A stretch of 64,000 nt of DNA from Candidatus Peribacteria bacterium (GCA_943350395.1 CALRAD010000002.1:1-64000); one strand, 5' to 3'; positions 31,584 to 53,334 are shown, numbered from the stretch's first letter. Notes: generated by a model from the letters alone, not told the origin. Translations and numbers: made by a program.

Positions 31584-32339
31584 TCACTTCGCCACGAATG
31601 CAGTCGCCCCGAGCCATGCCAAATCGAATACTGCTTTCATCGTGCGTGCGAACGTTGGGCTTTCGACGATGAGCCCCAAAAGTTCATCTGTATTGAGGGA
31701 AACGATACCGACGGAGTTTCCGAAGATGAGGACTTCGTTCTCAAACAGGAACTGATTTTTGTTCACGAGCAGAATTTCGATGAGGTTTGCATCGTACTTT
31801 TCCGGTAAAAATGTATCGAGCACGTGCACAGTCTCGACGGTGGTGGGGGAGAGGTAGCGGGTTTTAATGCCTTTCTTCAATTTCGTTTGTGTGTAATTTC
31901 GAAAGAAGTCCGGAAAGAACTCAGTGACATTCTTGAGGTTCGTGTAGCCGAGGATCTCACGCTTCGCCGTGAGAGATTCCGTGAAGACTTTCTCCACACC
32001 GTCCCTTCCTTCGTAGAACCTGATCTTCGGCTTGAATGCCGACGTTGAAATCAACGATTTCAGTTCCGGCATCAGACTCCGCGCCATATTCATTCGTTCT
32101 TCCGTAATTCGTACGAGTTGCTCAGGGGGTTCCGGAGCAAAACACTTCACTCCGTTCTTGTTGTACTGACTCAGGAGTTTTTTCTGCAGAAGGTTGTCGA
32201 TGGTGTAGTAGCAGCTTACGCGGTTCGCACCAGCCTTCCGTGCGATGATCGACACCGGTCCGCCGCCGATTTCGAGGCAAGCGAGGTAAACGCGCGCCTC
32301 TTCGTCACTCAAGCCGATCTTTAAGAGTTCCGTGATCAT
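31584..32339 (-). CDS. TrmB-like transcriptional regulator (array regulator 1)
   Basis: 'LLKIGLSDEEARVYLACLEIGGGPVSIIARKAGANRVSCYYTIDNLLQKKLL'; 'KIRFYEGRDGVEKVF'. Confidence 0.85.
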   Translation of the reverse strand: MITELLKIGLSDEEARVYLACLEIGGGPVSIIARKAGANRVSCYYTIDNLLQKKLLSQYNKNGVKCFAPEPPEQLVRITEERMNMARSLMPELKSLISTSAFKPKIRFYEGRDGVEKVFTESLTAKREILGYTNLKNVTEFFPDFFRNYTQTKLKKGIKTRYLSPTTVETVHVLDTFLPEKYDANLIEILLVNKNQFLFENEVLIFGNSVGIVSLNTDELLGLIVESPTFARTMKAVFDLAWLGATAFVAK

Positions 32340-32523
32340 TCACCCTGTATTATACCTGTGTTGTCGAATTTTTTCTACAGTATTTTACTATCAATAAATG
32401 GCTTAATATAAACAAAATATAAGAAAAATAATATTGAGTGTTGGACGCATTTTGCGAAGTATGGGATAGTGTAGTCGTCATCGAAAGGGACGCACAACGT
32501 CCAAGTTTCCCCTAATTTTTCAT

Positions 32524-34182
32524 ATGAAAAATATTTGCACCCAATGCTCGGCACACTTCGAAATCACAAGTGAAGATCAGCGCCTCCTGAAGCTCTTCGA
32601 TGTTCCGGATCCGAAGACCTGTCCCGATTGCCGTCTGCAGCGACGACTCTGTGAACGCAACACACGAAGCTTGTATTACAGAAAATGTGATCTGACCGGG
32701 AAGCAGATCATCTCCCAATACAATACCGACTGCGTGTTTCCCGTGTACGGCATCGATGCCTGGCTCAGTGATCAGTGGGATGGACTCACGTACGGTCGTT
32801 CATTCGATTTCAGCAGACCGTTCTTCGAGCAGTTCCATGAACTTTTGAATGTCACTCCGCATCTCGCGCTCTTCAATACGCCAGGAACAATGGAGAACAG
32901 CGATTATAATAACTGCACAGGGTACCTCAAAAACTGCTATCTGATCTGCGAGAGCGATATCTGTGAGGACTCCTACTACAGCAACCTCCTCAAGAAATCG
33001 AAAGATCTGATGGACTGCTCGGTGTGTTACGAGTGTGAGCGCTGCTACGAGTGTATTGACTGTACCGGCTGTCATACAGTGCTCTTCAGTCAGGATTGCC
33101 AGCAGTGCAGCGATGGATTCTTCCTGAAATACTGTCACGGCTGCAAAGACTGCATCGGCTGCATGAATCAGAGAAACAAGCAGTACATGATCTGTAATCA
33201 GCAGTACTCGAAAGAGGAGTACGAGAAGTATAAGAAGGAGTTTGCACTCGATACGCGCAGCGGACTACTGAAGCTTGCAGAGCAATGCGATACGTTCTTC
33301 GCGACTCAGCCGCACCGCGCACTTGATATTCAGCGAAGCGAAGGGTGCACCGGTGACCGTATCTACGACTGCAAGAACGCCGTGCATTGTTTCGACGTGA
33401 AAGATCTCGAGGATTGCAGGCATTGCCAGAGACTCTCGCTCACGTGCAAGACGTGCATGGACTTCAACTCATGGGGTCAGAATAGTGAGCTCGTGTACCA
33501 GTGCTCCGCCTGCGGGGACCGAACCTATAACACCAAATTCTGCTCGACCTGTATCACACTGAAGGACTGCGAGTACTGCTTCGAGTGCACGACGTCATCA
33601 GATCTCTTCGGCTGTGTTGGACTCAAGCATGCGCGTTTCTGCATCTTCAACGTGCAGTATACGGAAGAGGAGTATCGCGTTCTGCGTGCGAAGATCATCG
33701 AGCACATGAAGAAGGGTAGCGACTACGGTGAATATTTCCCTATGTCACTCTGTGCTTTCGCCTACAACGAAACATTTGCACCGGATCTGTTTCCGATGAC
33801 AAAAGAAGAGGTACTCGCACGCGGCTGGCGCTGGTACGAACACAGGGAAACAGAGAAGCAGTACATGGGTGCGGACGTCACGCTTCCGGAAACGATCGGT
33901 GAAGTTTCCGATGATCTCTGCAAGCAGATACTGCTGTGCAAGGCGACAGGAAAGCCCTACAAGATTATTCCCCAGGAACTAAAATTTTATCGTTCCATGG
34001 ACCTCCCCGTGCCATTCCTTTGCCCTGACGAACGTCACCGTCTGCGGATCACTAAAAGAAATCCTTATAAGCTCTTCACGCGCGAGTGTGCGAAGTGCAA
34101 GAAGCAGACGGAGACAACATACGCACCCGAGAGAGCAGAGATTATTTATTGTGAGGATTGCTACCTTTCCACTGTCTACTGA
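32524..34182 (+). CDS. Cys-rich array protein 1 (552 aa, zinc-ribbon/CxxC-x17-CxxC family)
   Basis: 50 Cys by hand count; N-term CTQC...CPDC, core 'CYECIDCTGC...CHGCKDCIGC', C-term 'CAKCKKQTETTYAPERAEIIYCEDCYLSTVY'. Confidence 0.9.
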   Translation: MKNICTQCSAHFEITSEDQRLLKLFDVPDPKTCPDCRLQRRLCERNTRSLYYRKCDLTGKQIISQYNTDCVFPVYGIDAWLSDQWDGLTYGRSFDFSRPFFEQFHELLNVTPHLALFNTPGTMENSDYNNCTGYLKNCYLICESDICEDSYYSNLLKKSKDLMDCSVCYECERCYECIDCTGCHTVLFSQDCQQCSDGFFLKYCHGCKDCIGCMNQRNKQYMICNQQYSKEEYEKYKKEFALDTRSGLLKLAEQCDTFFATQPHRALDIQRSEGCTGDRIYDCKNAVHCFDVKDLEDCRHCQRLSLTCKTCMDFNSWGQNSELVYQCSACGDRTYNTKFCSTCITLKDCEYCFECTTSSDLFGCVGLKHARFCIFNVQYTEEEYRVLRAKIIEHMKKGSDYGEYFPMSLCAFAYNETFAPDLFPMTKEEVLARGWRWYEHRETEKQYMGADVTLPETIGEVSDDLCKQILLCKATGKPYKIIPQELKFYRSMDLPVPFLCPDERHRLRITKRNPYKLFTRECAKCKKQTETTYAPERAEIIYCEDCYLSTVY

Positions 34183-35864
34183 TGAAAAAAATCTGCCTTC
34201 ACTGTTCAGCGAAGTTTGAGATCCCGGAGGACGATCTTCTCTTCTTCGAGAAAGTCTCACCGATCTTTGCCGGCAAAAAAGAACTGATCCCACCCCCGAC
34301 TCTGTGTCCTGACTGTCGTCAGCAGAGACGTCTTGCGTGGAGGAACGAGAAGCGGCTCTACCACCGGAAGTGTGATCTCACGGGGAAGCAGATCCTCTCG
34401 ATTTATGCTCCCGATTCGCCGTACACGGTCTACGATCACCGTGAGTGGTACACGGATAAGTGGGATCCACATGATTATGGACGCGAGTTCGATTTTTCAC
34501 GTCCGTTCTTCGAGCAATTTGGGGAACTTCTTCTCAAAACTCCGATGCGTTCGGTGAATCTGCAGGCTGAGAATGAGAATTGCGAGTACACGAACCTGAC
34601 GACCAGAAACAGGAACTGCTATCTGGTTTTCGCAGCGAACGATAACGAGGATTGCTACTATTGCATGTACATTCACAGGAGCAAGAACTTGATCGATTGC
34701 TTCTTCGTTTTCGACAGTGAGCTCTGTTACGAGTGTGTCGACTGCGAGCACTGTTACGATCTGCGTCACAGTCAATATTGCGAGACATGCAGCGAATCGG
34801 AGATGCTTTTTGCCTGTCGCGGCTGCAAAAATTGTTTCGGCTGCGTAAACCTCACCAACAAGGAATATCATTTGTTCAATCAGAAGATGGACAAAGAGAG
34901 TTATCTCCAAGCGGTTGCCGATATTCGCTGTAGCAGAGAAATGTTCGAGCGTGCGAAGGAAGAATTTATGAAACTTCGTCTTTCACTACCTCATAAAGAA
35001 TATGCGGGACTCAGTAATGAAAATGTCAGCGGAGATCACTTGAATCACTGCAAGAACGTGAAGCAGTCCTTCGACTGCACTTACGACGAAGATTGCTCGT
35101 ACTGCACATGGCTTCACCAATGCAGGGAATGTAGAGACTGTTACGCATGGGGGATACCTGGGGAGCTTGGGTACGAAAATCACCTGATCGGAAACGGCTT
35201 CTACAATGTCCGGTTCAGCGAATCGTGCTGGAATAACGTCAGGGATCTTCTGTACTGCCGCTACTGCCTCGACGGTTCACACGACTGCTTCGGTTGCAAC
35301 GGTCTTCGTGCCGGTTCGTACTGCATTCTCAATAAGCAGTACACAAAAGAGGAGTACGAGAGACTGGTGCCGAAGATTATCGAACATATGCGCAGTACGG
35401 GTGAGTACGGCGAATTCTTACCAGCAACACTTTCTCCGTATGCCTACAACGAAACTGTTGCGCAAGAATATTTTCCGCTCTCCAAAGAAATCGCGGAAAA
35501 ACAGGGTCTTCGCTGGAGACCGGAAGATCCGGAAGAGAAGAAGTACTTGGGTCCGAAGATAGAAGTACCGTGGTCGGTGAGTGATGTCAGCGATGATATT
35601 TGCAAACAGATTCTGATCTGTGAGGTCACGGGCAGACCGTATAAGATCATTCCTCAGGAATTGAAGTTCTACCGCGAGCGAGGGATTCCGCTCCCGCTTC
35701 GGTGTTTCGATCAACGTCATGCAGATCGCAGAGCGCTCAGGAACCCACGAAAAATCTGGACTCGTGCGTGTGCAAAATGTAGCAAGGAAATCCAGACGAC
35801 GTACAGCCCCGAGCGACCGGAGACTGTCTACTGCGAGCAGTGTTACCTTGAAGCCGTTTACTAA
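34182..35864 (+). CDS. Cys-rich array protein 2
   Basis: Start overlaps stop of copy 1 (TGATG); 'MKKICLHCSAKFEIPEDD...CGLNGLRAG..'-type core and C-term 'CAKCSKEIQTTYSPERPETVYCEQCYLEAVY'. Confidence 0.9.
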   Translation: MKKICLHCSAKFEIPEDDLLFFEKVSPIFAGKKELIPPPTLCPDCRQQRRLAWRNEKRLYHRKCDLTGKQILSIYAPDSPYTVYDHREWYTDKWDPHDYGREFDFSRPFFEQFGELLLKTPMRSVNLQAENENCEYTNLTTRNRNCYLVFAANDNEDCYYCMYIHRSKNLIDCFFVFDSELCYECVDCEHCYDLRHSQYCETCSESEMLFACRGCKNCFGCVNLTNKEYHLFNQKMDKESYLQAVADIRCSREMFERAKEEFMKLRLSLPHKEYAGLSNENVSGDHLNHCKNVKQSFDCTYDEDCSYCTWLHQCRECRDCYAWGIPGELGYENHLIGNGFYNVRFSESCWNNVRDLLYCRYCLDGSHDCFGCNGLRAGSYCILNKQYTKEEYERLVPKIIEHMRSTGEYGEFLPATLSPYAYNETVAQEYFPLSKEIAEKQGLRWRPEDPEEKKYLGPKIEVPWSVSDVSDDICKQILICEVTGRPYKIIPQELKFYRERGIPLPLRCFDQRHADRRALRNPRKIWTRACAKCSKEIQTTYSPERPETVYCEQCYLEAVY

Positions 35865-37510
35865 TGCAAAAATCTTGCACCCACTGCTCGGCTCACTTCA
35901 CTCTCGACACTGTCGATGAGGATTTCTTTGGAAGAATCGATATGCCGCTTCCATCGGATTGTCCTAATTGCCGCAGACAGCGGCGTTTGATGTTCCGGAA
36001 CTTTTTCAACCTCTACCACCGCACATGCGATCTAAGCGGTAAGAAAATTATTTCGATGTTCGACACGGACGTTCCATTCCCCGTCTACGAAATGCACGAG
36101 TGGTGGAGCGACAAGTGGGACGGTCTTGCGTACGGGAAAAATCCGGACTTCGAAAAACCATTCTTTGATCAAGTCGCGGTGTTGCATCGGACGGTTCCGC
36201 GCATGTCGATCGCCAATGCGCAGTGTGAGAATACCGACTACTGCAATATGGCCAATGAAAGCCGCAATTGTTATCTCGTCTTCGGGAATGTCGGCAACGA
36301 AGACTGTGCGTACGGACATATTGTCTGGAAGTCGAAGGATCTGTTTGACTGTCTCTACTGTTACAAGTGTCAGCTCTGTTACGAATGCATCGACTGCGTC
36401 GAATGTTACGGACTTACATTCTCGCGTGACTGTGACAACTGTTCCTCTTCTTCATTTCTGGTGCACTGTGTCGGTTGCAGCGACTGTTTCGGGTGCGTTG
36501 GGCTTCAGCACAAGACACATCACATCTTCAATCAGCCGTATTCCAAAGAAGAGTATGCGGCAAAAATTGCGGAGCTCCGTTTCGACGCTCACGAAACAAT
36601 TGCGTGGGCAAAAAGTCAGGTCGCGGTCCTCGTCGGCAAAGAAATCGTGAAGGTGTATCACGGATTCAACTCCGAGAATGTGACCGGAGACTATCTCTAC
36701 CACTGCAAGAACATTGTGGACGGTTATGATCTCAAGAATTGCGAGGACTGCCGTCACTGTGCGACCCTCGACGGATACAAGGATTGTCACGATTCCAATT
36801 TTTCCGCGAAGATCGGGGAACTTTGCTTCAATTGTCTCACGTCCTACGGGCATACCGTTCTCTGTTGCCAGGGTTGTATGAGCCCCTCAAGCAATATCGC
36901 GTACTGCGATAGCTGTTTCAACTGCAAAGATTGCTTCGGCTGCGTTGGTCTGAAGAGTAAGCAATATTGCATCCTGAACAAGCAGTATGCGAAAGAGGAG
37001 TATCAAGCTTTGCGTGAGAAATTGATCGAGCATATGCGAAATACAAGTGAGTGGGGTCACTTCTTCCCGCATGCACTCAGTCCGTTTGCCTACAATGAGA
37101 CAATCGCGTTCCAATACTTTCCACTGACCCGTGAGGAAGTCCTCGCGCGCGGCTGGCGATGGAAAGATACGGAATCAACGGCTGAGCAATACCTTGGTCC
37201 GGTTGTCGCTGTGCCATCGTCCATTCACGATGTATCGGATGACATCACGAAGCAGATTCTCCTCTGCGAGGTCACCAAAAAACCTTTCAAAATCATTCCG
37301 CAAGAACTTGCATTCTATAAACGAATGAATATTCCGGTTCCGCGAAAATGTTTCGATCAGCGGCACAGAGAACGCATGGCGCTTCGTAATCCCCGCAGAC
37401 TTTGGCAAAGGCAGTGTGCGAAGTGCTCGAAAGAAATCCAGACGACGTACAGCCCCGAGCGACCGGAGACTGTCTACTGCGAACAGTGTTACCTCGAAAC
37501 CGTCTATTAA
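35864..37510 (+). CDS. Cys-rich array protein 3
   Basis: Start overlaps stop of copy 2 (TAATG); 'MQKSCTHCSAHFTLDTVDED', C-term CxxC-x17-CxxC. Confidence 0.9.
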   Translation: MQKSCTHCSAHFTLDTVDEDFFGRIDMPLPSDCPNCRRQRRLMFRNFFNLYHRTCDLSGKKIISMFDTDVPFPVYEMHEWWSDKWDGLAYGKNPDFEKPFFDQVAVLHRTVPRMSIANAQCENTDYCNMANESRNCYLVFGNVGNEDCAYGHIVWKSKDLFDCLYCYKCQLCYECIDCVECYGLTFSRDCDNCSSSSFLVHCVGCSDCFGCVGLQHKTHHIFNQPYSKEEYAAKIAELRFDAHETIAWAKSQVAVLVGKEIVKVYHGFNSENVTGDYLYHCKNIVDGYDLKNCEDCRHCATLDGYKDCHDSNFSAKIGELCFNCLTSYGHTVLCCQGCMSPSSNIAYCDSCFNCKDCFGCVGLKSKQYCILNKQYAKEEYQALREKLIEHMRNTSEWGHFFPHALSPFAYNETIAFQYFPLTREEVLARGWRWKDTESTAEQYLGPVVAVPSSIHDVSDDITKQILLCEVTKKPFKIIPQELAFYKRMNIPVPRKCFDQRHRERMALRNPRRLWQRQCAKCSKEIQTTYSPERPETVYCEQCYLETVY

Positions 37511-37512
37511 CC

Positions 37513-39189
37513 ATGCAACGATCCTGCACCCACTGCTCGGCATCGTTTGGGATCAGCAAGGATGATCTTCAGTTTTACGACGATATCTCGCCCGTCTTCG
37601 GTGACAAAAAATGCGCAATCCCTCCGCCGACGCTCTGTCCTGCATGTAGATTCCAGAGGCGCCTCCTGATGCGCAATGACCGACATCTCTATCATCGAAA
37701 AAGTTCACTTTCAGGGAAGCAGATCATCTCTATTTACGCTCCGGAGAAAGAATTCCCTGTGTACGACCAGGACGAATGGTGGAGTGATCGGTGGGATCCA
37801 AAGGCATACGGAAGAGACATCGATTTCTCGAAGCCTTTCTACGATCAGGTACAGGAACTTCGACTCACGGTACCGCGAATTTCACTTCTGACGACCGGAG
37901 TTGAGAACAGTTACTACACGAACCATGCGCTTTTTCTGAAGAACTGTTATCTCGTCTTCGGTGGCGGTCATGACGAAGACTGCATGTTCAGTAATTATAT
38001 TTCATTCTCAAAAGATACACTCGACGGGCTTTGCTTATACTCATGTGAGCGATGCTACGAAGGCGTTTCGTCGCAACGCTGCTACGAATGTCTCTGGTTC
38101 ATGAATTGCCGCGACTGTACGTCGTGTCTGATGATCGAAGATTGCGAATCCTGCAAAAACTGTATCGGCTGTTTCGGTCTACATCGTAAAGAGTATTGCA
38201 TTCTCAATAACTTCGTCGGCAAGGAAGGCTTCGAAAAAATGCAACGCGAGCTTCTGCCGCTCACGCACGGCAAGATCGACGCACTTCGAGAGCGTTTCGA
38301 TGCGTTGAAGGCAACACTCCCGCATCGAAGCGCACATACATACGCATCAGAAAACTGCACCGGTGATGCCGTTTATAACAGTAAGAACAGTTTCGATTGT
38401 TTCGATGTTACGGACTGCGAGGACTGCAAGCACATTGCTTTCACACCGAAAGGAATCAGGAGTCAGGATGCGACGTTCACTTCTCCTGATGGTGTCGACC
38501 ATAACTACTTCGTCGGTTCCACGGTCGGTGCTCCGCGCTCGGCGTTCACGTTCATGGTGTGGTACGGCAGCGATGTGTATTGCTCAATCGAATGTCATCA
38601 CTGCCAAAATTGTTTCGGCTGCGCAGGGCTACGGAATGCGAAGCACTGCATTCTCAATAAGCAGTACACAAAAGAGCAGTACGACGAGCTGGTGCCGAAG
38701 ATCATTGAGCAGATGAAGAAGTTCGGGGAGTGGGGCGAGTTCTTTCCTCTCGATCTGTGTCCGTACGGCTACAACGAAACAAATGCTGTCGATTATTTTC
38801 CGCTCACCAAAGAGCAGGCACTCGCGCATGGATTTTCGTGGCGCGATGAGTCCGATCAGCAGGAGACATACCTCGGGCCGAAGCCGGAGATCCCTGAGAC
38901 GATTACCGATGTCGGCGATGACATCTGCACCAAGATTCTCGTCTGTGAAGCCACCGGCAGGCCCTTTAAGATCATTCCGCAGGAACTAAAGTTCTACCGA
39001 AGCATGGGACTCCCGCTTCCGAAGCGCTGCTTCGATGAGCGTCATAAAGACAGGATTCTTCGGAGAAACCCGAGGAAGCTTTGGGCACGCGATTGCGCCA
39101 AATGCAAAGAAGAAATGCAGACGACGTACTCTCCCGAAAAACCGCAAATCGTGTATTGCGAGCGTTGCTATCTTGAAACAGTCTACTAA
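37513..39189 (+). CDS. Cys-rich array protein 4
   Basis: 'MQRSCTHCSASFGISKDD'; C-term 'CAKCKEEMQTTYSPEKPQIVYCERCYLETVY'. Confidence 0.9.
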   Translation: MQRSCTHCSASFGISKDDLQFYDDISPVFGDKKCAIPPPTLCPACRFQRRLLMRNDRHLYHRKSSLSGKQIISIYAPEKEFPVYDQDEWWSDRWDPKAYGRDIDFSKPFYDQVQELRLTVPRISLLTTGVENSYYTNHALFLKNCYLVFGGGHDEDCMFSNYISFSKDTLDGLCLYSCERCYEGVSSQRCYECLWFMNCRDCTSCLMIEDCESCKNCIGCFGLHRKEYCILNNFVGKEGFEKMQRELLPLTHGKIDALRERFDALKATLPHRSAHTYASENCTGDAVYNSKNSFDCFDVTDCEDCKHIAFTPKGIRSQDATFTSPDGVDHNYFVGSTVGAPRSAFTFMVWYGSDVYCSIECHHCQNCFGCAGLRNAKHCILNKQYTKEQYDELVPKIIEQMKKFGEWGEFFPLDLCPYGYNETNAVDYFPLTKEQALAHGFSWRDESDQQETYLGPKPEIPETITDVGDDICTKILVCEATGRPFKIIPQELKFYRSMGLPLPKRCFDERHKDRILRRNPRKLWARDCAKCKEEMQTTYSPEKPQIVYCERCYLETVY

Positions 39190-39197
39190 TCAAAACG

Positions 39198-40034
39198 TCA
39201 TTTCTTTTTATTGATCGGAGCGAAGCCCTCCGAAGCCCCGCCGCTGCGGGGCGCAGGATGGGTCTTCGTCGCCTGCAGCCACAGTGACTCGAAGAACATT
39301 CTGAACGTATCGGCAAAATTCTTGTTTTCGATTTTGACAATCGTCAATTCATCGTCATACGCAAATAATGCGACGGTATCTTCAAAAATAACCATCTCGG
39401 ACATGAATTGCATACTTTTTGGAAGCAGGCGGACTTCGTACTCGTCATCTTGCGGTATCTCTGTGATGTATCTGCGTGCACCGGCGTTGTCGACGAAGAG
39501 TTCGCGACCGCGAAGACGTTGTTGACTTCCGAAAAGCATCGGGACGACGTTGCTTCCGAATGAATTGAACATCATTTCCGAATTGAAGAATGCGCAGAAG
39601 CCGTTCTGCAGTAGAACGTCCCTGTACACCTGCTTCATTCCGTCGAGACCATGCAGTGTCGTCACACGCGGCGACCCTACGTAGTTCGGTGTCAGCGTTT
39701 TTAGGAGCGGCAATGCACCTTCTAAAAGTGTCTGCGTTTCCTTCCACTCCTGCTCACGGTTCTTTGCGTAGTGCACAAGTCGGTGCGGGGGCTCGGCGAC
39801 GAATTGGAGAACTTTTCCCTGTTCGACGTGTGAAACCAAACCTTTTTCTTCAAGGCTCTGAAGCACGAGGTACGTATGACTTCGCGATTGTTTTGCGGCG
39901 CGTGCAATATTACTCACGCGTCCTGCTTTCATTGTGAGAAGTGCGAGATACACTTCTGATTCTTTCTCATCAAGTCCTGCACGTTTCAGTAGCGGGCGTA
40001 TCGCGGTACCGGAGTACGAAGGTCGATCGTTCAT
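39198..40034 (-). CDS. TrmB-like transcriptional regulator (array regulator 2)
   Basis: 'LLKRAGLDEKESEVYLALLTMKAGRVSNIARAAKQSRSHTYLVLQSLEEKGLVSHV'. Confidence 0.85.
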   Translation of the reverse strand: MNDRPSYSGTAIRPLLKRAGLDEKESEVYLALLTMKAGRVSNIARAAKQSRSHTYLVLQSLEEKGLVSHVEQGKVLQFVAEPPHRLVHYAKNREQEWKETQTLLEGALPLLKTLTPNYVGSPRVTTLHGLDGMKQVYRDVLLQNGFCAFFNSEMMFNSFGSNVVPMLFGSQQRLRGRELFVDNAGARRYITEIPQDDEYEVRLLPKSMQFMSEMVIFEDTVALFAYDDELTIVKIENKNFADTFRMFFESLWLQATKTHPAPRSGGASEGFAPINKKK

Positions 40035-40035
40035 A

Positions 40036-40057
40036 TTTGTCTAAAAGTATAGACAAA
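40036..40057. promoter_or_regulatory. Candidate operator TTTGTCTA-aaagta-TAGACAAA overlapping minus-strand -10 (TATACT) of regulator 2
   Basis: Perfect 8+8 inverted repeat, 6-nt spacer, directly upstream of the regulator start codon. Confidence 0.6.
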
Positions 40058-40130
40058 ATTGATTTATAAGTACAGTAAGCCCTTTATAGAGAGAAAAAAA
40101 GCTATCTGTTCTTTTCAGACGAAATACACG

Positions 40131-40144
40131 ATACTGATCAGTAT
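40131..40144. promoter_or_regulatory. Perfect 14-bp palindrome ATACTGATCAGTAT overlapping start of Cys-rich protein 5
   Basis: Self-complementary; contains the -10-like GATACT and touches the ATG at 40143. Confidence 0.5.
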
Positions 40145-41825
40145 GCACAACGCACATACCTGCCAGCAGTGTCAGACATCCTTCTCCGTCACTGACGAAG
40201 ACCGAAAATTTCTCGATATGCTCTCTCCGATCATCGGCGGAATGAAACAGAACTTGCCCGAACCGACGATGTGCCCCGATTGCCGACTGCAGCGTCGTAT
40301 GGCGTGCGTGAATCAGCTCAGTCTCTATGAGCGCACATGCGACTTAACGGGTGCATCGGTCATCTCCAATATAAGACCGGGCTCTCCCTATAAGGTCTAC
40401 CGACAGGAGGATTGGCACAGCGACAAGTGGGACGCGCTCGAGTACGGAAAGGAATTTGATTTTTCGCGTCCATTCTTTGATCAGTGGCAGGAGCTCTGTT
40501 TGGCAGTTCCCCGCCCGAGCCTCTTTACCGGTTACGAATTCGATGAGAACTGCGCGTATACGAATCACGCAGGGAAGAACAAGAACTGCTACATGATCTT
40601 TGACTCTGACGAGAACCGCGACTGTTACTACAGTTACAGTATCAACCAGTGCGAAAACTGCTGCGACTGTTTCCGTGTCCGTAAGAGCGAGCTGTGTTAC
40701 GAATGTGTTGATTGTGTGCGTTGCTACGGTTCGTCGTATTTGCAGGATTGCGACAACTGCTCGAGTTCGCTCTTTCTCAAGAATTGCACAGGCTGCAAAG
40801 ACTGTCTTATGTGCAGCAACATGAAGAACAAACAGTTTTGTATCGAAAATAAGCAGTACACCGAAGCAGAATTCCATGCGACACGCGATTTGCTTCGTAC
40901 ACGGAGTGCTCTCTGCTCTGCACAGGAACGTTTCCGTGCACTCAAGCTGGAGTATCCGCAGAAGTACATGCACGGAGTGCAGAATGAAGATGTTCTTGGT
41001 GATTATCTTGTCGGCTGCAAGAATGCACAGTTTTGCTTCGACAGCGAAGATCTCTGGGATTGCCGATACGTGTATCAGGGCTTTATGCCGCTTAAGAATT
41101 GCATGGATATTCAGGAGTGTGGGGATGGCGAACTTCTCTACGAGTGTTCGGTCATGGGCTACGACATCCATAGTTCTCTCTTCTGCAGTCACGTGCTCGC
41201 AAGTGTCAGCGAGATGATCTATTGCTCGCTCTGTCCGCACAGCAAAAATTGTTTCGGCTGTATCGGTGTACAGCGCAAGCAGTACTGCATTCTCAATAAG
41301 CAGTACACGAAAGAGGAATATGAAGCACTTGTACCGAGAATCATTGAACATATGCGAAAGTCTCGCGAGTATGGCGAGTTCTTACCTGTCAGCGTTTCGA
41401 CATATGCTTACAACGAATCGCTCGCGATGGATTACTACCCGATGACGAAGCAAGATGTAGAGAGCAGAGGATGGAAGTGGCTGGATGACGAAAGAAAGAA
41501 TCGCAAAGAAGCTTCTGCGGTTGCATTGCCTGAAAGTATTGCAGAAGCAGACGATGATCTTCTGAAGAACGTCCTGACATGCAGGACCTCAAAGAAGCAG
41601 TACAAGATTACTGCGCAGGAGCTCAAGTTCTACCGTCAGATCGGTGTGCCCGTTCCGGATGAGTGTTTCTTTGAGCGTCACAAAGGTCGTATGACACTCA
41701 GGAACAAGAGAACGCTTTATGAGAGGATCTGCGGCAAGTGTTCGAAGTCGATCCAGACAACGTATGGTCCGGATCGGCCGGAGCAGGTGTACTGCGAAGA
41801 GTGCTATCTGGAAGCACTGACATGA
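40143..41825 (+). CDS. Cys-rich array protein 5
   Basis: 'MHNAHTCQQCQTSFSVTDEDRKF'; C-term 'CGKCSKSIQTTYGPDRPEQVYCEECYLEALT'. Confidence 0.9.
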   Translation: MHNAHTCQQCQTSFSVTDEDRKFLDMLSPIIGGMKQNLPEPTMCPDCRLQRRMACVNQLSLYERTCDLTGASVISNIRPGSPYKVYRQEDWHSDKWDALEYGKEFDFSRPFFDQWQELCLAVPRPSLFTGYEFDENCAYTNHAGKNKNCYMIFDSDENRDCYYSYSINQCENCCDCFRVRKSELCYECVDCVRCYGSSYLQDCDNCSSSLFLKNCTGCKDCLMCSNMKNKQFCIENKQYTEAEFHATRDLLRTRSALCSAQERFRALKLEYPQKYMHGVQNEDVLGDYLVGCKNAQFCFDSEDLWDCRYVYQGFMPLKNCMDIQECGDGELLYECSVMGYDIHSSLFCSHVLASVSEMIYCSLCPHSKNCFGCIGVQRKQYCILNKQYTKEEYEALVPRIIEHMRKSREYGEFLPVSVSTYAYNESLAMDYYPMTKQDVESRGWKWLDDERKNRKEASAVALPESIAEADDDLLKNVLTCRTSKKQYKITAQELKFYRQIGVPVPDECFFERHKGRMTLRNKRTLYERICGKCSKSIQTTYGPDRPEQVYCEECYLEALT

Positions 41826-41856
41826 TAGTGCCTCAAGCGTGTTACAATTCCGCTCC

Positions 41857-43557
41857 ATGCAACGAATCTGTATCAACAGCTGGTGTGCCGAGGCATTCGA
41901 GATCACTGACGACGATCTTGCTTGCTACAAGAAGCTTGCTCCGGTGATTGGCGGGCAGACCCATGAATTACCTCTTCCAGATTTCTGTTTTTCCTGCCGT
42001 TTGCAGCGCAGACTTGCGTTCTACAACAGTCGGTCTCTCTACAAACGAATATGCGATTTCTCGGGGAAACAGGTTGTCTCGGTCTTCTCTCCGGATAAAC
42101 CTTTTAAGGTGTACGACAAAGATATCTGGTTCAGCGATGCATGGAATCCGCTCTCTTACGGACGTGATTTCGATTTCGACCGTCCGTTTTTTTCGCAATT
42201 CAGAGAACTCATGGAAGCAGTGCCTCAGCTTGCGATCACACACTTTGGCTGGGAGAACATCAATAGTGAGTTCACGAATGATAATTACAAGATCAAGAAT
42301 TGCTATCTGACGTTCGATGGCGAGCAGGCCGAGGATTGTTATTACCTGCATTCATTCGTGATGGATAAAAATTGTGTCGACGGGGTTCATCTGATGCTTT
42401 CGGAGCTTTGCTACGAGTGCGTGCACTGCACGCAGTGCTATGCACTGAGGTTTGCGCGATACTCCAACAACTGCAGCGACAGCGAGTTTCTCCGTGATTG
42501 CATTGGGTGTAAGAACTGCTTCGGCTGCGCGAATCTGAGGCAGAAACAGTACTGCATCTGGAACGAACAGAAGACGAAGCAGGAGTACGAAACGTTCTTG
42601 CAGTCATTCGAATCAAGTTCGCATGACGTTGTACAGGCAATGCGGAAAAAGGCGGAAGACTTCTTCAGCCGTCAGCCCGTGAAGAGTATGCGCGGCGAGC
42701 AGAATCAGAATGTTGTCGGAGACAATATGAATCAGTCGAAGAACGCGCACTGGTGTTTCGATTGTTACAATCAGGAAGACTGCCGCTACACGACGAACTG
42801 CATGATGCCAGCGAAAGATCTCTTCGACGTGCATGTGTGGGGTGATGGGCTCGAGCTCGCCTATGATTGCTGTGTCATCGGTGCCGACTCGCGCGAATTA
42901 TTTTTCGATTACGCAGTCGCATCGAATTGCACGGATATTCTCTATTCGACCTACTGCAGTCAGGGTTGCTCGCATTGCTTCGGTTGCGTAGGGCTGCGGC
43001 GTTCCAAGTATTGTATCTTCAATCAGCAGTATTCCGAAGAAGAGTACGGGAAACTTGTGAACAGAATAATCGATCACATGCGCCAGGCAGGGGAGTGGGG
43101 GCGATTCTTTCCTTCAGAATATTCGTTCTTTGGGTACAACGAGACGATGGCGCAGACGTTCTTCCCGCTGACGAAAGAAGAATGCAAGAAGCGCGGCTAC
43201 CGGTGGTGCGACTACGAAGCAGCAATCGAAGCAACGAGAACGATTCCTGCTGCGCAGTTACCGGATAACAGTGCCGATATTCCGGATGACATCCTGAACT
43301 GGGCGATCGTGTGCGAAGTCAGCAAGAAACCATTCAAGATTATCAAGCAAGAGCTCGATTTCTATCGTACCCATCGCTTGTCGATTCCAAGACGGCACCC
43401 GAATCAGCGGCATTTTGACCGGTACGCTCTCAAAAATCCCTTCAAGCTCTTCGATCGAACGTGTGCGAAGTGCTCGAAAGCGATTCAGACAAGTTATGCG
43501 CCCGACCGCCCCGAAATTGTGTATTGCGAGGAGTGCTACCTAAAGGAGGTGTATTAA
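41857..43557 (+). CDS. Cys-rich array protein 6
   Basis: 'MQRICINSWCAEAFEITDDD'; TACAAT 8 nt upstream of ATG; C-term CxxC-x17-CxxC. Confidence 0.9.
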   Translation: MQRICINSWCAEAFEITDDDLACYKKLAPVIGGQTHELPLPDFCFSCRLQRRLAFYNSRSLYKRICDFSGKQVVSVFSPDKPFKVYDKDIWFSDAWNPLSYGRDFDFDRPFFSQFRELMEAVPQLAITHFGWENINSEFTNDNYKIKNCYLTFDGEQAEDCYYLHSFVMDKNCVDGVHLMLSELCYECVHCTQCYALRFARYSNNCSDSEFLRDCIGCKNCFGCANLRQKQYCIWNEQKTKQEYETFLQSFESSSHDVVQAMRKKAEDFFSRQPVKSMRGEQNQNVVGDNMNQSKNAHWCFDCYNQEDCRYTTNCMMPAKDLFDVHVWGDGLELAYDCCVIGADSRELFFDYAVASNCTDILYSTYCSQGCSHCFGCVGLRRSKYCIFNQQYSEEEYGKLVNRIIDHMRQAGEWGRFFPSEYSFFGYNETMAQTFFPLTKEECKKRGYRWCDYEAAIEATRTIPAAQLPDNSADIPDDILNWAIVCEVSKKPFKIIKQELDFYRTHRLSIPRRHPNQRHFDRYALKNPFKLFDRTCAKCSKAIQTSYAPDRPEIVYCEECYLKEVY

Positions 43558-43560
43558 AGT

Positions 43561-44340
43561 TTATTCTTTCAATCCTTGCATCGGCTGCTTGTCGGCACTC
43601 GCCCCCTTCCATGCGAGTTCAAAGACAGCACGCTCGGTCTTCGTGTAGACGGAACTCTCGATGATCATGCCAATGAGTTCATTCGGATTGAGTGACAAAA
43701 TTGCCGCACGGTCGTTGTAGAATGTGATCTGATACTCGAAGGGTGCCGAAGCAGGATCCACGAATAGCACTTCCACGAGGTACGTATGGAATCCCTGCGG
43801 ATAACAGTGACCAAGATGACGGAGTCCTTCGTTGGAATGCGGCGAAAGGAAGCGCGTTCGGATACGTCTCTCGAGTTTCTGATTCGCGTAGTGGATGAGT
43901 TCGTTCTCAGGGAGCACGCTCGGAAGTGCACCGAAATCCGTGTAGCCGATAATCTCATGCTCGGCATTCAGCGTGTCTTCGAGGACGTTTCTGATCCCTT
44001 CAGTTCCTTCGTAGTACTGGATCTTCGGCTTGTAGGCGAGTGCATGGGTCATCGAGAGAAGTTCAGGCAGAATTTTCTCCGCACGCTCGAGTTTCTGTTG
44101 CTGCTTCCGGACGAGAATACGCGGGTCTTCTGCTGAGAAGTGACGAACATTGTTTTTGGAGAATTGCGAGATCAGTCCTTTCGATGTCAGTCCTTCCAGA
44201 ATTTTATAACACACCACGCGGTGCACTCCCGCCTGCTTCGCGATCGCACTGACGTACGATCCGCCGAGTTCAAGCAGTGCGATATACACTTTCGCTTCGT
44301 CGTCGCTTAAGCCGAGTTCGATCAAGTCAGAAGATTTCAT
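43561..44340 (-). CDS. TrmB-like transcriptional regulator (array regulator 3)
   Basis: 'LIELGLSDDEAKVYIALLELGGSYVSAIAKQAGVHRVVCYKILEGLTSKGLISQFSKNNVRHF'. Confidence 0.87.
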   Translation of the reverse strand: MKSSDLIELGLSDDEAKVYIALLELGGSYVSAIAKQAGVHRVVCYKILEGLTSKGLISQFSKNNVRHFSAEDPRILVRKQQQKLERAEKILPELLSMTHALAYKPKIQYYEGTEGIRNVLEDTLNAEHEIIGYTDFGALPSVLPENELIHYANQKLERRIRTRFLSPHSNEGLRHLGHCYPQGFHTYLVEVLFVDPASAPFEYQITFYNDRAAILSLNPNELIGMIIESSVYTKTERAVFELAWKGASADKQPMQGLKE

Positions 44341-44342
44341 GC

Positions 44343-44365
44343 TTGTTGTAATAAAATTACTACAA
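44343..44365. promoter_or_regulatory. Candidate operator TTGTTGTAAT-aaa-ATTACTACAA
   Basis: 10+10 inverted repeat with one mismatch, between regulator 3 and Cys-rich protein 7. Confidence 0.5.
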
Positions 44366-44383
44366 ATAGAATATTCTAATAAT

Positions 44384-46156
44384 ATGGCTTCTGTAAAGCA
44401 AGATATAGATCTTTATCTTTTTGAGTGTATTGACTACTTTACATTTATGACTAGGATGACTTGCATGCAAACCTTCTGCGCCTCCTGCGCTCTGTCATTC
44501 ACGGTCATGGATGACGATCTTGCGTTCTACGATCAAGTTTCGCCGATCTTCGGAGGGAAGAAATATGGCATCCCTCCACCAACGCTTTGTCCGGATTGCA
44601 GACAGCAGAGGCGACTCAGCATCGTGAATGAAAGAAATTTTTATACAACCACATGCGGCCTCTGTAAAAAACGAACGATGACTGAGCATCCTTCGGAGAG
44701 CGGCAAGACAGTTTATTGTCGAGATTGCTGGTTCAGCGATCGTTGGGACAGCTGTTCGTATGGCAAGGACGTCGATTTCACACAACCGATTTTTCCTCAG
44801 ATTTTAGAGCTCGTTCGCTCTGTTCCTGCGCTCAACTTGCTTGCCGAAGGAACGAACGTGAACTCGGATTACATTCACTATGCAGGATACGCAAAGAATT
44901 GTTACTTGATCATGCATGCGGACTTCTGCGAGGACTGTTACTACGGATACGGTTTCAAGAAGAACACGAGCTGTGTCGACGGATTTTATAATCTGAGTTG
45001 CCAGCTCTGCTACGACTGCGTCGATGTGCACAGTTGTTACGGACTGAAGGGATCTCAGGACTGTGTAAACTGTTCCTCTTCCGCTTTCCTCCGCGACTGC
45101 ATCGGTTGCAAGAACTGTTTTCTCTGTGCGGGGCTACGCAACAAAGAATATTGTTTTGAGAACGAGCAGCTCAGCAAAGCTGACTACGAGGCGAGAGTGG
45201 CTGCGATCGATCTTTCATCCTACAGGCAGTACCAAGGATGCAAGGTGAAGAGAGCGGAGGTTGAGAAGAATCATCCTTTCAAACAACTCCACACGCACAA
45301 TCTCGAAAACTGCTCGGGCGACTATCTCCAGAATTGCAAAGACACGCAGTGCAGTTTCGATTGCGAGGATGTCGAGCGCGGTAAATTTCTCTATCAGGTC
45401 GTGACCGGAGCCAAGAATGTCTATGATATTTATCAATACGGTTTGAATCTTCGGGAGTCCTACGAATGTTCCATTGCTGGCACAGAAAGTTACGGGATTC
45501 GCTTCACACACAATGCGCATAACAGTTGTGCAGAACTTCTGTACTGTTGGTACATTCAGACATCGAAAAACTGTTTTGGTTGCGTCAATATGAATCGAAA
45601 GCAGTATTGCATCTTCAACAAGCAGTACACGAAGCAGCAGTACGAGGAACTTGTACCCAAGATTATCGACTACATGAAGAAAACAGGCGAGTGGGGAGAG
45701 TTTTTTCCGACGACCTTTTCGCCATTCGGGTATAACAAGTCGTCTGCACAGATGTATTACCCGCTGACGAAAGCCGAGGCGCTGAAGCGCGGTTGGAAGT
45801 GGGATGACAGCAAAGAGGAGCCTCCGGTTGTGTCAAAAATCATCGCTGCCTCGATGCTTCCGGATGCGATCACGGATATTCCCGATGACATTTTGAACTG
45901 GGCGGTGGAATGCGAGGTGACAAATAAGCCCTATAAAATCACACCGCAGGAACTCCGGTTCTACCGCGAGCAGAATCTTCCGGTTCCGAGGCGATGTCCC
46001 GACCAGCGTCATCTCGATCGATTTGCACAGCGCAATCCGAGAAAGTTCTTCGATCGTCCCTGCGCAAAATGCAAAAAAGCAATTCGGACAACATATAGTC
46101 CTGAGGAGCCCGAAACAGTCTATTGCGAGGAGTGCTATCTCACCTCCGTTTACTAA
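44384..46156 (+). CDS. Cys-rich array protein 7 (retains an intact internal CxxC-x17-CxxC; possibly extended N-terminus)
   Basis: Start chosen at MASVKQD because TATTCT lies 6 nt upstream; alternative start MQTFCASC at 44465. Contains 'CGLCKKRTMTEHPSESGKTVYCRDC'. Confidence 0.85.
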   Translation: MASVKQDIDLYLFECIDYFTFMTRMTCMQTFCASCALSFTVMDDDLAFYDQVSPIFGGKKYGIPPPTLCPDCRQQRRLSIVNERNFYTTTCGLCKKRTMTEHPSESGKTVYCRDCWFSDRWDSCSYGKDVDFTQPIFPQILELVRSVPALNLLAEGTNVNSDYIHYAGYAKNCYLIMHADFCEDCYYGYGFKKNTSCVDGFYNLSCQLCYDCVDVHSCYGLKGSQDCVNCSSSAFLRDCIGCKNCFLCAGLRNKEYCFENEQLSKADYEARVAAIDLSSYRQYQGCKVKRAEVEKNHPFKQLHTHNLENCSGDYLQNCKDTQCSFDCEDVERGKFLYQVVTGAKNVYDIYQYGLNLRESYECSIAGTESYGIRFTHNAHNSCAELLYCWYIQTSKNCFGCVNMNRKQYCIFNKQYTKQQYEELVPKIIDYMKKTGEWGEFFPTTFSPFGYNKSSAQMYYPLTKAEALKRGWKWDDSKEEPPVVSKIIAASMLPDAITDIPDDILNWAVECEVTNKPYKITPQELRFYREQNLPVPRRCPDQRHLDRFAQRNPRKFFDRPCAKCKKAIRTTYSPEEPETVYCEECYLTSVY

Positions 46157-46907
46157 TCTTCGGCTCCGGCAGCAAATCCCACATCATCTTCCACCAGATG
46201 CGATAACTCGCCGCGAGGCGGGGGCTCACCATCACGAAGATCGTGAGATCGTCTTCCAGTTTTCCGAATCCGAGTCCTGTGAACGTTACGACATGATCAC
46301 CGAAAACTTCGATCGCGGACTCTGATGTGTATTTCTTCGGTGCAAATTTATACGGCTTGCCGACGGCTTCGGGCACATGAGGCACTTTCTCCTGCACTTC
46401 CCAGTCAAAGATGTGATGAAATTTCATTTTCTTCTTCTTTGCCTCGGTCAGAAACCATTTCGTGAACGTCTCCAGCCGTGGATCGAACCAACCGCCCTTC
46501 GCGCCGAACTCGTACATATCTTCGCCGACTTTCAGTGCCTCACGCAGAAAGTTTTTCATTCCCTCGACGCCTTTATAGATGTACGCGCGCTGCACGGCAC
46601 GTTGCGATCGATACGTCGAAAAGAGCTCGGGGAGTGCCTTATCGAGCAGGCGTTCTTTCTCTTTCACAAGCTCCATCAGCTTTCCCGGTTCTACTGCTTC
46701 GTAGACGGTTTCTCCCTGGCTGAAGACCTCTGATACAAGCCCCTTTTCGATAAGTCTATGCACTGCATCGTACGCATTGCGGCGATGGACCCCTGAGCGT
46801 AGTGCAATCGTCGACACGCCGGAACCTCCGAATGTCAGGAGTGCTTCGTAAATGCGCGCTTCATTCGGAGAGAGACCGAGTTCTTGGAAGAGTTCTGCAT
46901 GCAACAT
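46140..46907 (-). CDS. TrmB-like transcriptional regulator (array regulator 4)
   Basis: 'MLHAELFQELGLSPNEARIYEALLTFGGSGVSTIALRSGVHRRNAYDAVHRLIEKGLV'; TATACT 7 nt upstream of this start. Confidence 0.85.
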   Translation of the reverse strand: MLHAELFQELGLSPNEARIYEALLTFGGSGVSTIALRSGVHRRNAYDAVHRLIEKGLVSEVFSQGETVYEAVEPGKLMELVKEKERLLDKALPELFSTYRSQRAVQRAYIYKGVEGMKNFLREALKVGEDMYEFGAKGGWFDPRLETFTKWFLTEAKKKKMKFHHIFDWEVQEKVPHVPEAVGKPYKFAPKKYTSESAIEVFGDHVVTFTGLGFGKLEDDLTIFVMVSPRLAASYRIWWKMMWDLLPEPKISKRR

Positions 46908-47010
46908 AGACATCAGTATAGCAGATTGTGGTGATAACTGCCACCTTATGGTGATCTATGCTACTCATTTGAAATTCCTATAATTGACACAGTTTCCTAA
47001 TCATTCTCTA

Positions 47011-47502
47011 ATGACTACAGAATCTTCTCGCAACCCGGCTGAAGCAAAAGCTATGATGCTGTATTTCACTGACCTGCTGGGTCAGGGATGGGAAGGTCGA
47101 CTCTATCACCTGTTGAATGCGGGGAGTGTATTTGCAGGTGCTCGAAATGTAACTACTGCCGAAGAGGCAATGGCCTATTCTGAAAGTTTACTTTCACAAG
47201 TGCCGACGGAGGAAAAAGATATGATTGCTTCCTATGTGAAAAGTATGTGTGGAGAAGGCAGAAATGTCGTATTTCTCGCTAACCCAACGATTGTTTATGG
47301 CAACGCTGAATTTCATTTATTCGGTGCTCGGCACCAGAATGTGGGAAGCGTGAATCTGTTCTCTCTTCCCTTGGTTCGATTCAGAACTATATGCGAATTG
47401 AGGGGTTGGCAGGAGCCGGAAGCTGACGCAGGTAGTCCAATCGATTCTGCGAAGCAGGAGGAACGAAGAAAGCTGGATCAATTATTTTCCTCTCTCCGAT
47501 GA
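47011..47502 (+). CDS. Hypothetical protein, 4-nt overlap with Cys-rich protein 8
   Basis: 'MTTESSRNPAEAKAMMLYFTDLLGQGWEGRLYHLLN'; ATGA junction with next ORF implies an operon. Confidence 0.6.
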   Translation: MTTESSRNPAEAKAMMLYFTDLLGQGWEGRLYHLLNAGSVFAGARNVTTAEEAMAYSESLLSQVPTEEKDMIASYVKSMCGEGRNVVFLANPTIVYGNAEFHLFGARHQNVGSVNLFSLPLVRFRTICELRGWQEPEADAGSPIDSAKQEERRKLDQLFSSLR

Positions 47503-49226
47503 ATGCAATCTGCTCCCTCTGTTCGGCTCCGTTTGAAATCACGCAAGACGATCTTGCATGCTACGAAAAAGTTTCCCCTGTGTTTGCAGGAAAAACCTTT
47601 ACGATTCCACCCCCGACTCGTTGCCCCGATTGCAGGAACAGACGTCGAATGAGCTGGCGTAATGATCGGTATTTCTACAAAAGGAAATGTGATCTCACCG
47701 GTGAAAATTTTCTTTCGATCTTTCCGGCGGACTCGCCCTATGTCGTCTATAAACCGAGCGCTTGGTACAGCGACAAGTGGGATCCTATGGAGTATGGTCG
47801 TTCCTTCGATTTTTCCTGTCCGTTTTTTGAGCAACTTGAGGAACTGATGCGGATTGTGCCGCAGATCGGCATTGACGTCATCAATTGCGAGAATTCGGAG
47901 TATTGCAACTACTGCGGGGATGATAAGAATTGCTATCTCGATATCGCGGGAGAGGGGAACGAAGACTGTTACTTCAATCTATTCATCAAGCACTGCACGA
48001 ATTGTGCTGACTGCACATTCTGCTATCACAGCACGCTGTGTTACGAGTGTATCAACTGCTATAACAGTTACAGCTGTAGATTCAGTCAGTATCTCGAGAA
48101 CTGTAATGACTGTATTGGCTGCTTCGATTGCAAAGGCACGAAGGATTGTGCGTTTTCTGTGAATTTGCGCGGCAAACAGTATCAGATTTTCAATGTGCAG
48201 TACGAGAAAGCAGAGTACGAGCGCAGGATTCAAGAAATGCGTCTGGATACTTTTAGCGGATGGCAGTCTGCAGGGGGGCAGTGGCAGACATTCCGCATCG
48301 AGAAAGGCATCTACAGAGACATGTACACGCTCAATTGTCAGAACTGCAACGGAAATGACATTCAGAATTCGAAGAATTGCAGCGCCGCGTTTAATGTTCT
48401 CAATTGCGAGGACAGCAGCTACCTCAGTGACGTGCTCGATGCACGCGATTGCCGCGATCTCAACTACTCACTCTATAAACCGGAATGCAGCTACGAACTC
48501 TGCAGTACCTTGGCTCTTACATTCTCTGCATTCAACATGGCTTCGCACTACTCAAGCAACATTTTTTACTGTCAGAAAGTGAATCACTGTAAGAATCTTT
48601 TCGGTTGCATCGGTTTTGCACTCGGGCAGAAGCAGTATTGCATTCTCAATAAGCAGTACACGAAAGCAGAGTACGAAGATCTGGTGCCGAAGATCATCGA
48701 ACATATGAGAAACGATGGTGGCGGTGCCATGAACCGTGCGAGCGGAGCGAGCTCTGGTTCATGGGGCGAATTCTTTCCGGAAACGATCAGTCAGTACGCG
48801 TACAACGAAACAGTCGCGCAGGAATATTATCCTCTGTCCCGCGATGAAGTGACGAGTCGTGGTTGGAAGTGGCGGGAACAGATTGATGAAATGCCGAAAG
48901 TTGAGAGAGTCATCGAGGCATCGAAGCTTCCGGAAACGATCGCTGATATTCCCGATGATATTTTGAATTGGGCGATTCGATGCGAAGCGACCAATCGTCC
49001 GTTCAAGATCATCAGGCAGGAATTGGAGTTCTACCGGAATTTGCAGTTGCCGATTCCGCGTGTGCACCCCGATGAGCGTCACCGACAGAGGATGATCCGG
49101 AGAAACCCGCGAACACTCTGGGATCGTGTCTGTACAAAATGCAAGAAGGCGATCAGAACGACGTATGCACCCGATAGGCCGGAGATCGTGTATTGCGAAT
49201 CTTGTTATCTTGAAACAGTCTATTGA
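47499..49226 (+). CDS. Cys-rich array protein 8
   Basis: 'MNAICSLCSAPFEITQDDLACYEKVSPVFAGK'; C-term 'CTKCKKAIRTTYAPDRPEIVYCESCYLETVY'. Confidence 0.9.
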   Translation: MNAICSLCSAPFEITQDDLACYEKVSPVFAGKTFTIPPPTRCPDCRNRRRMSWRNDRYFYKRKCDLTGENFLSIFPADSPYVVYKPSAWYSDKWDPMEYGRSFDFSCPFFEQLEELMRIVPQIGIDVINCENSEYCNYCGDDKNCYLDIAGEGNEDCYFNLFIKHCTNCADCTFCYHSTLCYECINCYNSYSCRFSQYLENCNDCIGCFDCKGTKDCAFSVNLRGKQYQIFNVQYEKAEYERRIQEMRLDTFSGWQSAGGQWQTFRIEKGIYRDMYTLNCQNCNGNDIQNSKNCSAAFNVLNCEDSSYLSDVLDARDCRDLNYSLYKPECSYELCSTLALTFSAFNMASHYSSNIFYCQKVNHCKNLFGCIGFALGQKQYCILNKQYTKAEYEDLVPKIIEHMRNDGGGAMNRASGASSGSWGEFFPETISQYAYNETVAQEYYPLSRDEVTSRGWKWREQIDEMPKVERVIEASKLPETIADIPDDILNWAIRCEATNRPFKIIRQELEFYRNLQLPIPRVHPDERHRQRMIRRNPRTLWDRVCTKCKKAIRTTYAPDRPEIVYCESCYLETVY

Positions 49227-51600: not shown

Positions 51601-51721
51601 TGAAAGAAAACCTAGCGGTTTTCTCTCACTGGCTCTCTTTCCCTTTTATTGGAGCAGCTCCAGCATTGGGGCCCGCGAGACCCAATGCTTCGCTGCGGAT
51701 TTTTTGTTGTACAATGGAGGC

Positions 51722-52243: not shown

Positions 52244-52318
52244 GTTCTAAAGTTGCTCATCAAAAAGCAACGGAGCTTCTATTGATTCTTATTTCACAGG
52301 GTGTACAATCATCCACCT

Positions 52319-53259: not shown

Positions 53260-53334
<75 letters not shown>

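Follow-up and report, generated by a model that had tools for sequence, protein, structure and literature searches.

Gene content of the locus

We analyzed a stretch of 64,000 nucleotides from a Candidatus Peribacteria bacterium (GCA_943350395.1, CALRAD010000002.1:1-64000; this whole stretch is called the window), in which eight homologous genes, S1 to S8, fill positions 32524 to 49226 of the plus strand. A first-pass annotation, made from the sequence alone, had described them as a tandem array of Cys-rich, multi-zinc-knuckle paralogs and a candidate undescribed system. All eight open reading frames (ORFs) proved to be full-length, encoding proteins of 548 to 575 aa with 38 to 50 Cys each, and S2 to S8 were 39 to 47% identical to S1, for which the earlier hand count of 50 Cys in 552 aa was correct. 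Since the E values between copies were 1e-146 or better and S relatives were found in about half of a 147-genome sample of the class, this homology is not due to chance. No S protein matched Pfam, NCBIfam, or PADLOC above cut-off, no library tried gave a full-length match, and our literature search found no paper describing the family, which thus indeed appears to be absent from curated libraries.

Two components of the locus had been passed over in that annotation: four TrmB-type regulator genes among the S genes (R1 to R4) and an ATPase gene, T, which lies directly 3′ of S8 and belongs to the same unit (Table 1). Each R gene is divergently oriented and heads one sub-operon, giving the arrangement R1|S1-S4, R2|S5-S6, R3|S7, and R4|S8-T. 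The genes S1 to S4 abut or overlap inside their sub-operon, and for S7 the alignment favored the start at 44465 over that at 44384. Two further full-length S genes lie elsewhere in the same genome, which also encodes a stand-alone zf_Tbcl-type zinc-module protein (G000:C2:170043-170261, L125); many Patescibacteria have small ORFs of this kind.

Table 1. Features of the S array, its regulators, the ATPase gene, and the surrounding island
Feature	Coordinates	Strand	Description
Island segment	31455..53488		About 22 kb between the M50 gene and the gene at 53489; absent from the matching site in same-genus G002
R1	31584..32339	-	Divergent from S1-S4; PF01978, 26.9 bits
Operator-like palindrome	32362..32379		TGTCGAATTTTTTCTACA; 1 mismatch to TGTAGAA-N4-TTCTACA
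S1	32524..34182	+	Two-solenoid, zinc-ended protein (predicted), 552 aa, 50 Cys
S2	34182..35864	+	560 aa, 41 Cys; AlphaFold2 model made
S3	35864..37510	+	548 aa, 44 Cys
S4	37513..39189	+	558 aa, 38 Cys
R2	39198..40034	-	Divergent from S5-S6; PF01978, 50 bits
S5	40143..41825	+	560 aa, 44 Cys
S6	41857..43557	+	566 aa, 38 Cys
R3	43561..44340	-	Divergent from S7; PF01978, 51.8 bits
Weaker operator-like site (tentative)	44347..44364		TGTAATAAAATTACTACA; between R3 and S7; 3 mismatches
S7	44465..46156	+	563 aa, 41 Cys
R4	46140..46913	-	Divergent from S8; PF01978, 57 bits
172-aa ORF	46984..47502	+	Overlaps the 5′ end of S8; neither a family match nor recurrence; gene status doubtful
S8	47499..49226	+	575 aa, 41 Cys
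T	49345..51600	+	Soluble VirD4/TraG/HerA-type ATPase, 751 aa, directly 3′ of S8
226-aa ORF	51563..52243		Between T and tRNA; no family match
Bro-N gene	52301..53002		Phage antirepressor-type; between T and tRNA
tRNA-Thr(ggt)	53260..53334	-	3′ edge of the island

Linkage and co-occurrence of S, T, and R

An unbiased clustering took in every ORF of 70 aa or more in the neighborhood of arrays from about 31 genomes. Only three families recurred as neighbors, namely S itself (29 genomes), T (21 genomes), and TrmB-type R (16 genomes), while the next cluster was found in 5 genomes at most; the usual gene order was one R gene pointing away from a run of S genes that is followed by T in the same direction. 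The M50 gene upstream of the array was rejected as a part of the system, since it is also single-copy in array-less relatives and is unlinked elsewhere.

The class sample comprised 147 metagenome-assembled genomes (MAGs, as were all genomes compared here). At thresholds of E ≤ 1e-100 for S and E ≤ 1e-180 for T, 65 of them had both genes, 1 had only T, 13 had only S, and 68 had neither (Fisher p 3e-27, uncorrected for phylogeny). A more diverged T-like ATPase gene was found beside S in 8 of the 13 genomes with S only. All T-bearing genomes but one (65 of 66; G375 has two copies) carried a single T, and the number of S copies ranged from 1 to more than 30 per genome. In a second class, distant within the phylum (that of G102), a single-solenoid S relative and its T were found in one identical set of 7 genomes out of 100, six times as adjacent pairs and once as a single fused ORF. 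This natural fusion (L189:1492-3381, minus strand) encodes 629 aa, the T-type ATPase being followed by one solenoid. A TrmB-type gene adjoins T at another locus of the second class (L116). Linkage, co-occurrence, and fusion taken together make it very likely that S and T are functional partners.

Arrays of the size seen in the window had been thought unusual, which was not borne out: S matches reached 34 to 36 per genome of about 1 Mb and, with about 1.7 kb for a full copy, S genes occupy up to about 6% of such a genome (36 matches in one genome). The locus L178-L180 (G415:C4:48671-99621) contains about 25 S-related genes, in which full-length S partly alternates with a shorter form, S′, lacking both zinc modules and ending in ...RIKLGFKF, and T and a divergent R are present as well. 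Many in-frame TGA codons were seen in G415, and 11 of the 14 checked in one S gene fall at Gly-containing columns. S genes also turned up in MAGs labeled Micrarchaeota or Nitrospirota (L025, L046, L064), where binning errors are more likely than real transfer.

Predicted architecture of the S proteins

The AlphaFold2 model of S2, built from 140 homologs, reached a mean predicted local distance difference test score (pLDDT) of 92 and a predicted template modeling score (pTM) of 0.91. With this high confidence, S is predicted to consist of two Cys-triplet solenoids placed between two zinc modules, an overall fold without a confident known match. The core comprises two tandem solenoid units (residues ~122 to 235 and ~273 to 378), each ending in ...CI.N.QY.KEEYE, and the same profile region matched twice in a core-only relative (L117). 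In solenoid 1, nearly all Cys are spaced at multiples of three residues (lags of 3 to 27 enriched 2.7- to 3.9-fold, other lags at about 0.1-fold), with a peak at 12. Such a strict 3-residue solenoid period would be expected of Cys in structural core positions, and their side chains probably point inward.

The ends conformed to the zinc-ribbon-like character ascribed to them earlier. The N-terminal CxxC...CxxCR segment was present in all eight copies, slightly altered in S6, as was the C-terminal CxxC-x17-CxxC. The N-terminal module retains C5, C8, C42, and C45 and the C-terminal module C530, C533, C551, and C554, most of the other site having been lost in each. Both resemblances stayed below cut-off, with 17.4 to 23.6 bits against PF23477 (zf_Tbcl_2; cut-off, 27) and 15 to 20 bits against TIGR04272 (CxxC-x17-CxxC; cut-off, 36). 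At L117 and L118, S is reduced to the core and the zinc module is a separate neighboring ORF, with T nearby; a separate zinc-module ORF of this kind does pass PF13451. About three quarters of the S proteins terminate in ...V-Y-COOH. As had been stated, no signal peptide was found in S, nor was any hydrophobic or transmembrane segment, the protein starting directly in the zinc module.

Fold searches with S gave nothing below an E value of 0.03 for the whole fold in the PDB (TM-score ~0.1), and among viral proteins chiefly zinc-module matches and no whole-length match. Small Cys-rich proteins of Campylobacter and Vibrio phages (NC_027997.1:24206-24577, L191) and PHROG 15341 are weakly similar to the solenoid core, a resemblance that is probably convergent.

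T is a VirD4/TraG/HerA-type ATPase

T scored above the cut-offs of PF02534 (35.4 bits; cut-off, 20.1) and PF10412 (23.7 bits; cut-off, 20.5) and marginally above that of the HerA/DUF87 family PF01935 (24.3 bits; cut-off, 23.2), and the solved sequences nearest to it were TrwB and DotL. By structure, Foldseek matched T to VirB4, TrwB, HerA, and Cag-beta, as well as to the HerA partners of the SIR2-HerA and DUF4297-HerA defense complexes; judged by E value, T is nearer to VirB4/TrwB than to HerA. The N-terminal membrane anchor that canonical coupling proteins have is missing from T (maximum 19-residue hydropathy, 1.18; 0.9 to 1.7 across 20 T homologs), and a hydrophobic N terminus was seen only in a distant T relative, that of L117.

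Published work counts 5,713 VirD4-like proteins in Patescibacteria, only 148 of them near virB4, and thousands away from virB4 have no assigned role (PMC12102498); we infer that T is a member of this orphan pool. Through the R-S(n)-T module, one clade of these ATPases, which have no known client, can be tied to an inseparable genetic partner as well as to a regulator and an operator. Several T paralogs (~31 to 47% identity) were found in all 16 relatives searched, including those where S arrays are absent. Two such paralogs lie among housekeeping genes in the array-less G002 (G002:C4:10625-18925), and they were accordingly discarded as pointers to a type IV secretion system (T4SS) locus.

TrmB-type regulators and a candidate operator

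All four R proteins matched the TrmB helix-turn-helix (HTH) family PF01978 above its cut-off of 25.6 bits (Table 1). Only the HTH domain was matched, and scores against the NCBIfam TrmB-family equivalog models were far below cut-offs. A palindrome, TGTAGAA-N4-TTCTACA, recurs between divergent R and S genes in many genera. The sequence flanking the arrays, 1.12 Mb in total, contained 14 sites with at most 1 mismatch, each of them either a short way upstream of an R or S gene or at the start of an R gene. A second locus set, which shares some genomes with the first, contained the palindrome with at most 2 mismatches in 16 of 31 R|S regions and, over its whole length, 15 sites with at most 1 mismatch versus 0.3 expected (per 1.18 Mb). 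The R proteins may bind this operator, and the divergent genes and the motif suggest that expression of the array is regulated, as the first-pass annotation had supposed. Our literature search found no paper on TrmB in the candidate phyla radiation (CPR).

The array is a reshuffled set of old types on an island

Between the M50 gene and the gene at 53489, the window carries a segment that is missing from the same-genus G002, where the M50 gene is directly followed by the ortholog of the 53489 gene. A tRNA gene lies at the 3′ edge of this island (Table 1), and a tRNA gene also follows T in L022, L031, and L044; no integrase was seen. Bro-type DNA like that between T and the tRNA gene also lies beyond T in L022. 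A phage origin was considered and rejected, the candidates being one marginal viral-contig match, a PHROG of unknown function matching the core (E 5e-6), and weak matches to phage Cys-rich proteins with uninformative context.

The closest relative of the array, L022, is headed by an ortholog of R1 and has the order S7, R1, a type missing in the window, S1, S2, S4, S3, and T, so that the two loci differ by an insertion, a swap, and losses. Identities between them are 65 to 79% for S, 91% for T, and 96% for R1, and the protein-level change was larger for S (nonsynonymous divergence, dN, 0.13 to 0.27) than for T (0.07) and R1 (0.04), synonymous divergence (dS) being saturated. A conserved ancestral order was rejected more generally, since only 79 of 142 shared-type pairs were concordant, which is about what chance gives.

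A copy in the same genome was the nearest relative for only 29 of 171 S proteins, and all eight copies in the window are 53 to 69% identical to copies in other genera versus 44 to 50% among themselves. By these comparisons, the S copies are old types rather than recent duplicates. When different types are compared, no other large part of the protein is as poorly conserved as the solenoids (identity ~0.33 to 0.40, versus 0.54 to 0.62 for the ends), whereas within a type their conservation equals or exceeds that of the ends (0.64 to 0.74 versus 0.61 to 0.64), the solenoid-to-end ratio rising from 0.64 to 1.11. Different types of one genome are more alike than chance in the linker (z 7.0), the C-terminal module (z 6.7), and the N-terminal module (z 3.9), while their solenoids are not (z 0.6 and -0.5). 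Solenoids that are type-specific and ends that are alike within a genome fit a type-specific binding body whose ends are tuned to a partner common to each genome, and T is the obvious candidate for this partner.

Proposed function of the module and alternative explanations

In our proposal, R-S(n)-T is a chromosomal module of three parts, and the array is the part that varies. Each TrmB-type R would bind the palindromic operator in its divergent promoter and control its own sub-operon. S would be a rigid rod, in which two Cys-triplet solenoids with type-specific exposed faces are bracketed by constant zinc modules. These constant ends, and the C-terminal module above all, would dock onto the one shared T, which would spend ATP on moving or remodeling S or material bound to it. 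Binding of S to T through the ends, ligand recognition by the solenoids, and ATP-driven transport with its direction are what we infer here. The likeliest use would be that of a coupling ATPase with interchangeable adaptors or substrates, serving a type IV secretion-like envelope machine of episymbionts, and to the proposal as a whole we assign a probability of roughly 0.5. Speaking for it are the recurrence, co-occurrence, and fusion described above, the pairing of nearly always one T with 1 to more than 30 S, the type-specific solenoids with like ends, and the conserved C-terminal V-Y of S. The coupling-ATPase use is favored because of the coupling-protein matches of T and what is reported on T4SS and orphan VirD4-like proteins in Patescibacteria, which are thought to live on other microbes and in one cultured member of which a T4SS is needed for epibiotic growth (PMC12102498).

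Several points speak against this proposal. No T4SS channel or relaxase gene family recurs around the arrays of the ~31 genomes, T has no membrane anchor, and neither an export signal nor a known effector domain is present in S. The T-S fusion is known from one genome, and the co-occurrence statistic takes no account of phylogeny. Gene conversion of the ends would yield the same within-genome signal, and from genome to genome T co-varies only weakly with the ends (C-terminal module, Spearman 0.29), with phylogeny or gene conversion as a confounder.

Two rivals are live. Firstly, the module could be a defense or anti-mobile-element system, with T acting as a HerA-like motor and the S types forming a sensor repertoire directed at foreign proteins or nucleic acids. 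The island-like presence or absence between close relatives, the position beside a tRNA gene, the sporadic distribution in the second class (7 of 100), the repertoire of fixed specificities, and the Foldseek matches of T to HerA of the SIR2-HerA and DUF4297-HerA complexes would all suit such a role. However, PADLOC gave no match for S2 and S8 and noise (E 0.02 to 0.05) for R1 and the 172-aa ORF, these being the proteins scanned; the recurrent neighbors of the arrays include no nuclease, NADase, or other killing effector; and the E values place T closer to VirB4/TrwB; we therefore hold defense to be an unlikely, if serious, alternative.

Secondly, the S proteins could themselves be exported to form adhesins or appendage subunits at the cell surface, with T as the export or assembly ATPase. 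T has a full-length VirB4-like structural match, S is rod-like, the N- and C-terminal modules have each lost one zinc site in a complementary way, which could permit head-to-tail pairing, and the 3-residue Cys ladder is as in extracellular disulfide-rich solenoids. Yet S is devoid of a signal peptide or transmembrane segment, its treble-clef zinc modules suggest a reducing cytosol, and orthologous solenoids are conserved rather than diversifying, which makes this assembly slightly less probable still than defense.

The first-pass annotation had thought of a metal-buffering, redox, or ligand-sensing paralog battery. Its ligand-sensing part comes close to the conservation pattern found here, but metal buffering or redox activity is unsupported as the main function, since it leaves the inseparable ATPase, the type-specific solenoids, and the reshuffling unexplained. 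With 27 to 53 Cys per protein across the family and zinc modules in addition, a metallothionein-like battery is an understandable suggestion; it does not account for T linkage or the T-S fusion, the Cys occupy apparent core positions, and the single-solenoid relatives that accompany T (L115, L116) have few Cys, so that we consider it improbable. A locus for antigenic or phase variation that expanded through recent tandem duplication, for which tandem paralogs in variable copy number might speak, was rejected as very improbable, being contradicted by the nearest-relative comparison and by the conservation of solenoids within types.

The package of S rows, switch gene, and motor looks like an undescribed recognizing or moving system rather than a simple metal store. 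A bolder and more doubtful reading is that Patescibacteria possess, phylum-wide, a machine of a new kind, in which one motor ATPase works with an island-borne, reshuffled library of old solenoid rods and the repertoire would set what the episymbiont recognizes, imports, or delivers on its host. For testing, the T-S pair in single copy and the naturally fused T-S ORF are small enough to begin with.

Comparison with known systems

The ends of S are paired, partly degenerate versions of zf_Tbcl/zf_Tbcl_2 (PF13451, PF23477) and TIGR04272; unlike members of these families, S stays below every cut-off, and the matched stretches cover about 35 of its ~560 residues. Insect antifreeze-type proteins are 12-residue Cys beta-solenoids (PF02420), and S solenoid 1 shares their 3-residue Cys period with its peak at 12. 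Since S gave no match to PF02420 at E ≤ 1, this likeness is probably convergent. In the same bacterial class, Candidatus Peribacter riflensis has a 14-gene Cys-rich cluster (Cys, 7.2%; mean length, 1,655 aa), mostly with signal peptides, from which S, at 548 to 575 aa and without a hydrophobic segment, is probably distinct, some overlap being conceivable (PMC4736985).

T shares the ATPase core of the VirD4/TraG/TrwB coupling proteins (PF02534, PF10412, PF12696), the first two families being matched above cut-off. It differs from them in the missing membrane anchor, in a VirB4-like N-terminal region, and in being encoded with S arrays rather than with T4SS or relaxase genes. The effectors of the Xanthomonas X-T4SS have variable bodies and a constant C-terminal XVIPCD domain that is recognized by a single VirD4. 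By analogy, S may work in a parallel way, with many bodies, a constant end, and one ATPase; unlike XVIPCD effectors, the S bodies are solenoids without a recognizable toxin domain, a constant N-terminal module is also present, and the S genes sit together with those of the ATPase and the regulators. HerA and HerA-partner defense ATPases belong to the same superfamily as T (PF01935, Foldseek), but T was seen with no NurA, SIR2, or DUF4297 partner, its partner being S, and no third family besides R recurs. By the features tested, R-S(n)-T fits no known system; T for its part adds a new member to an ATPase superfamily that is already known.

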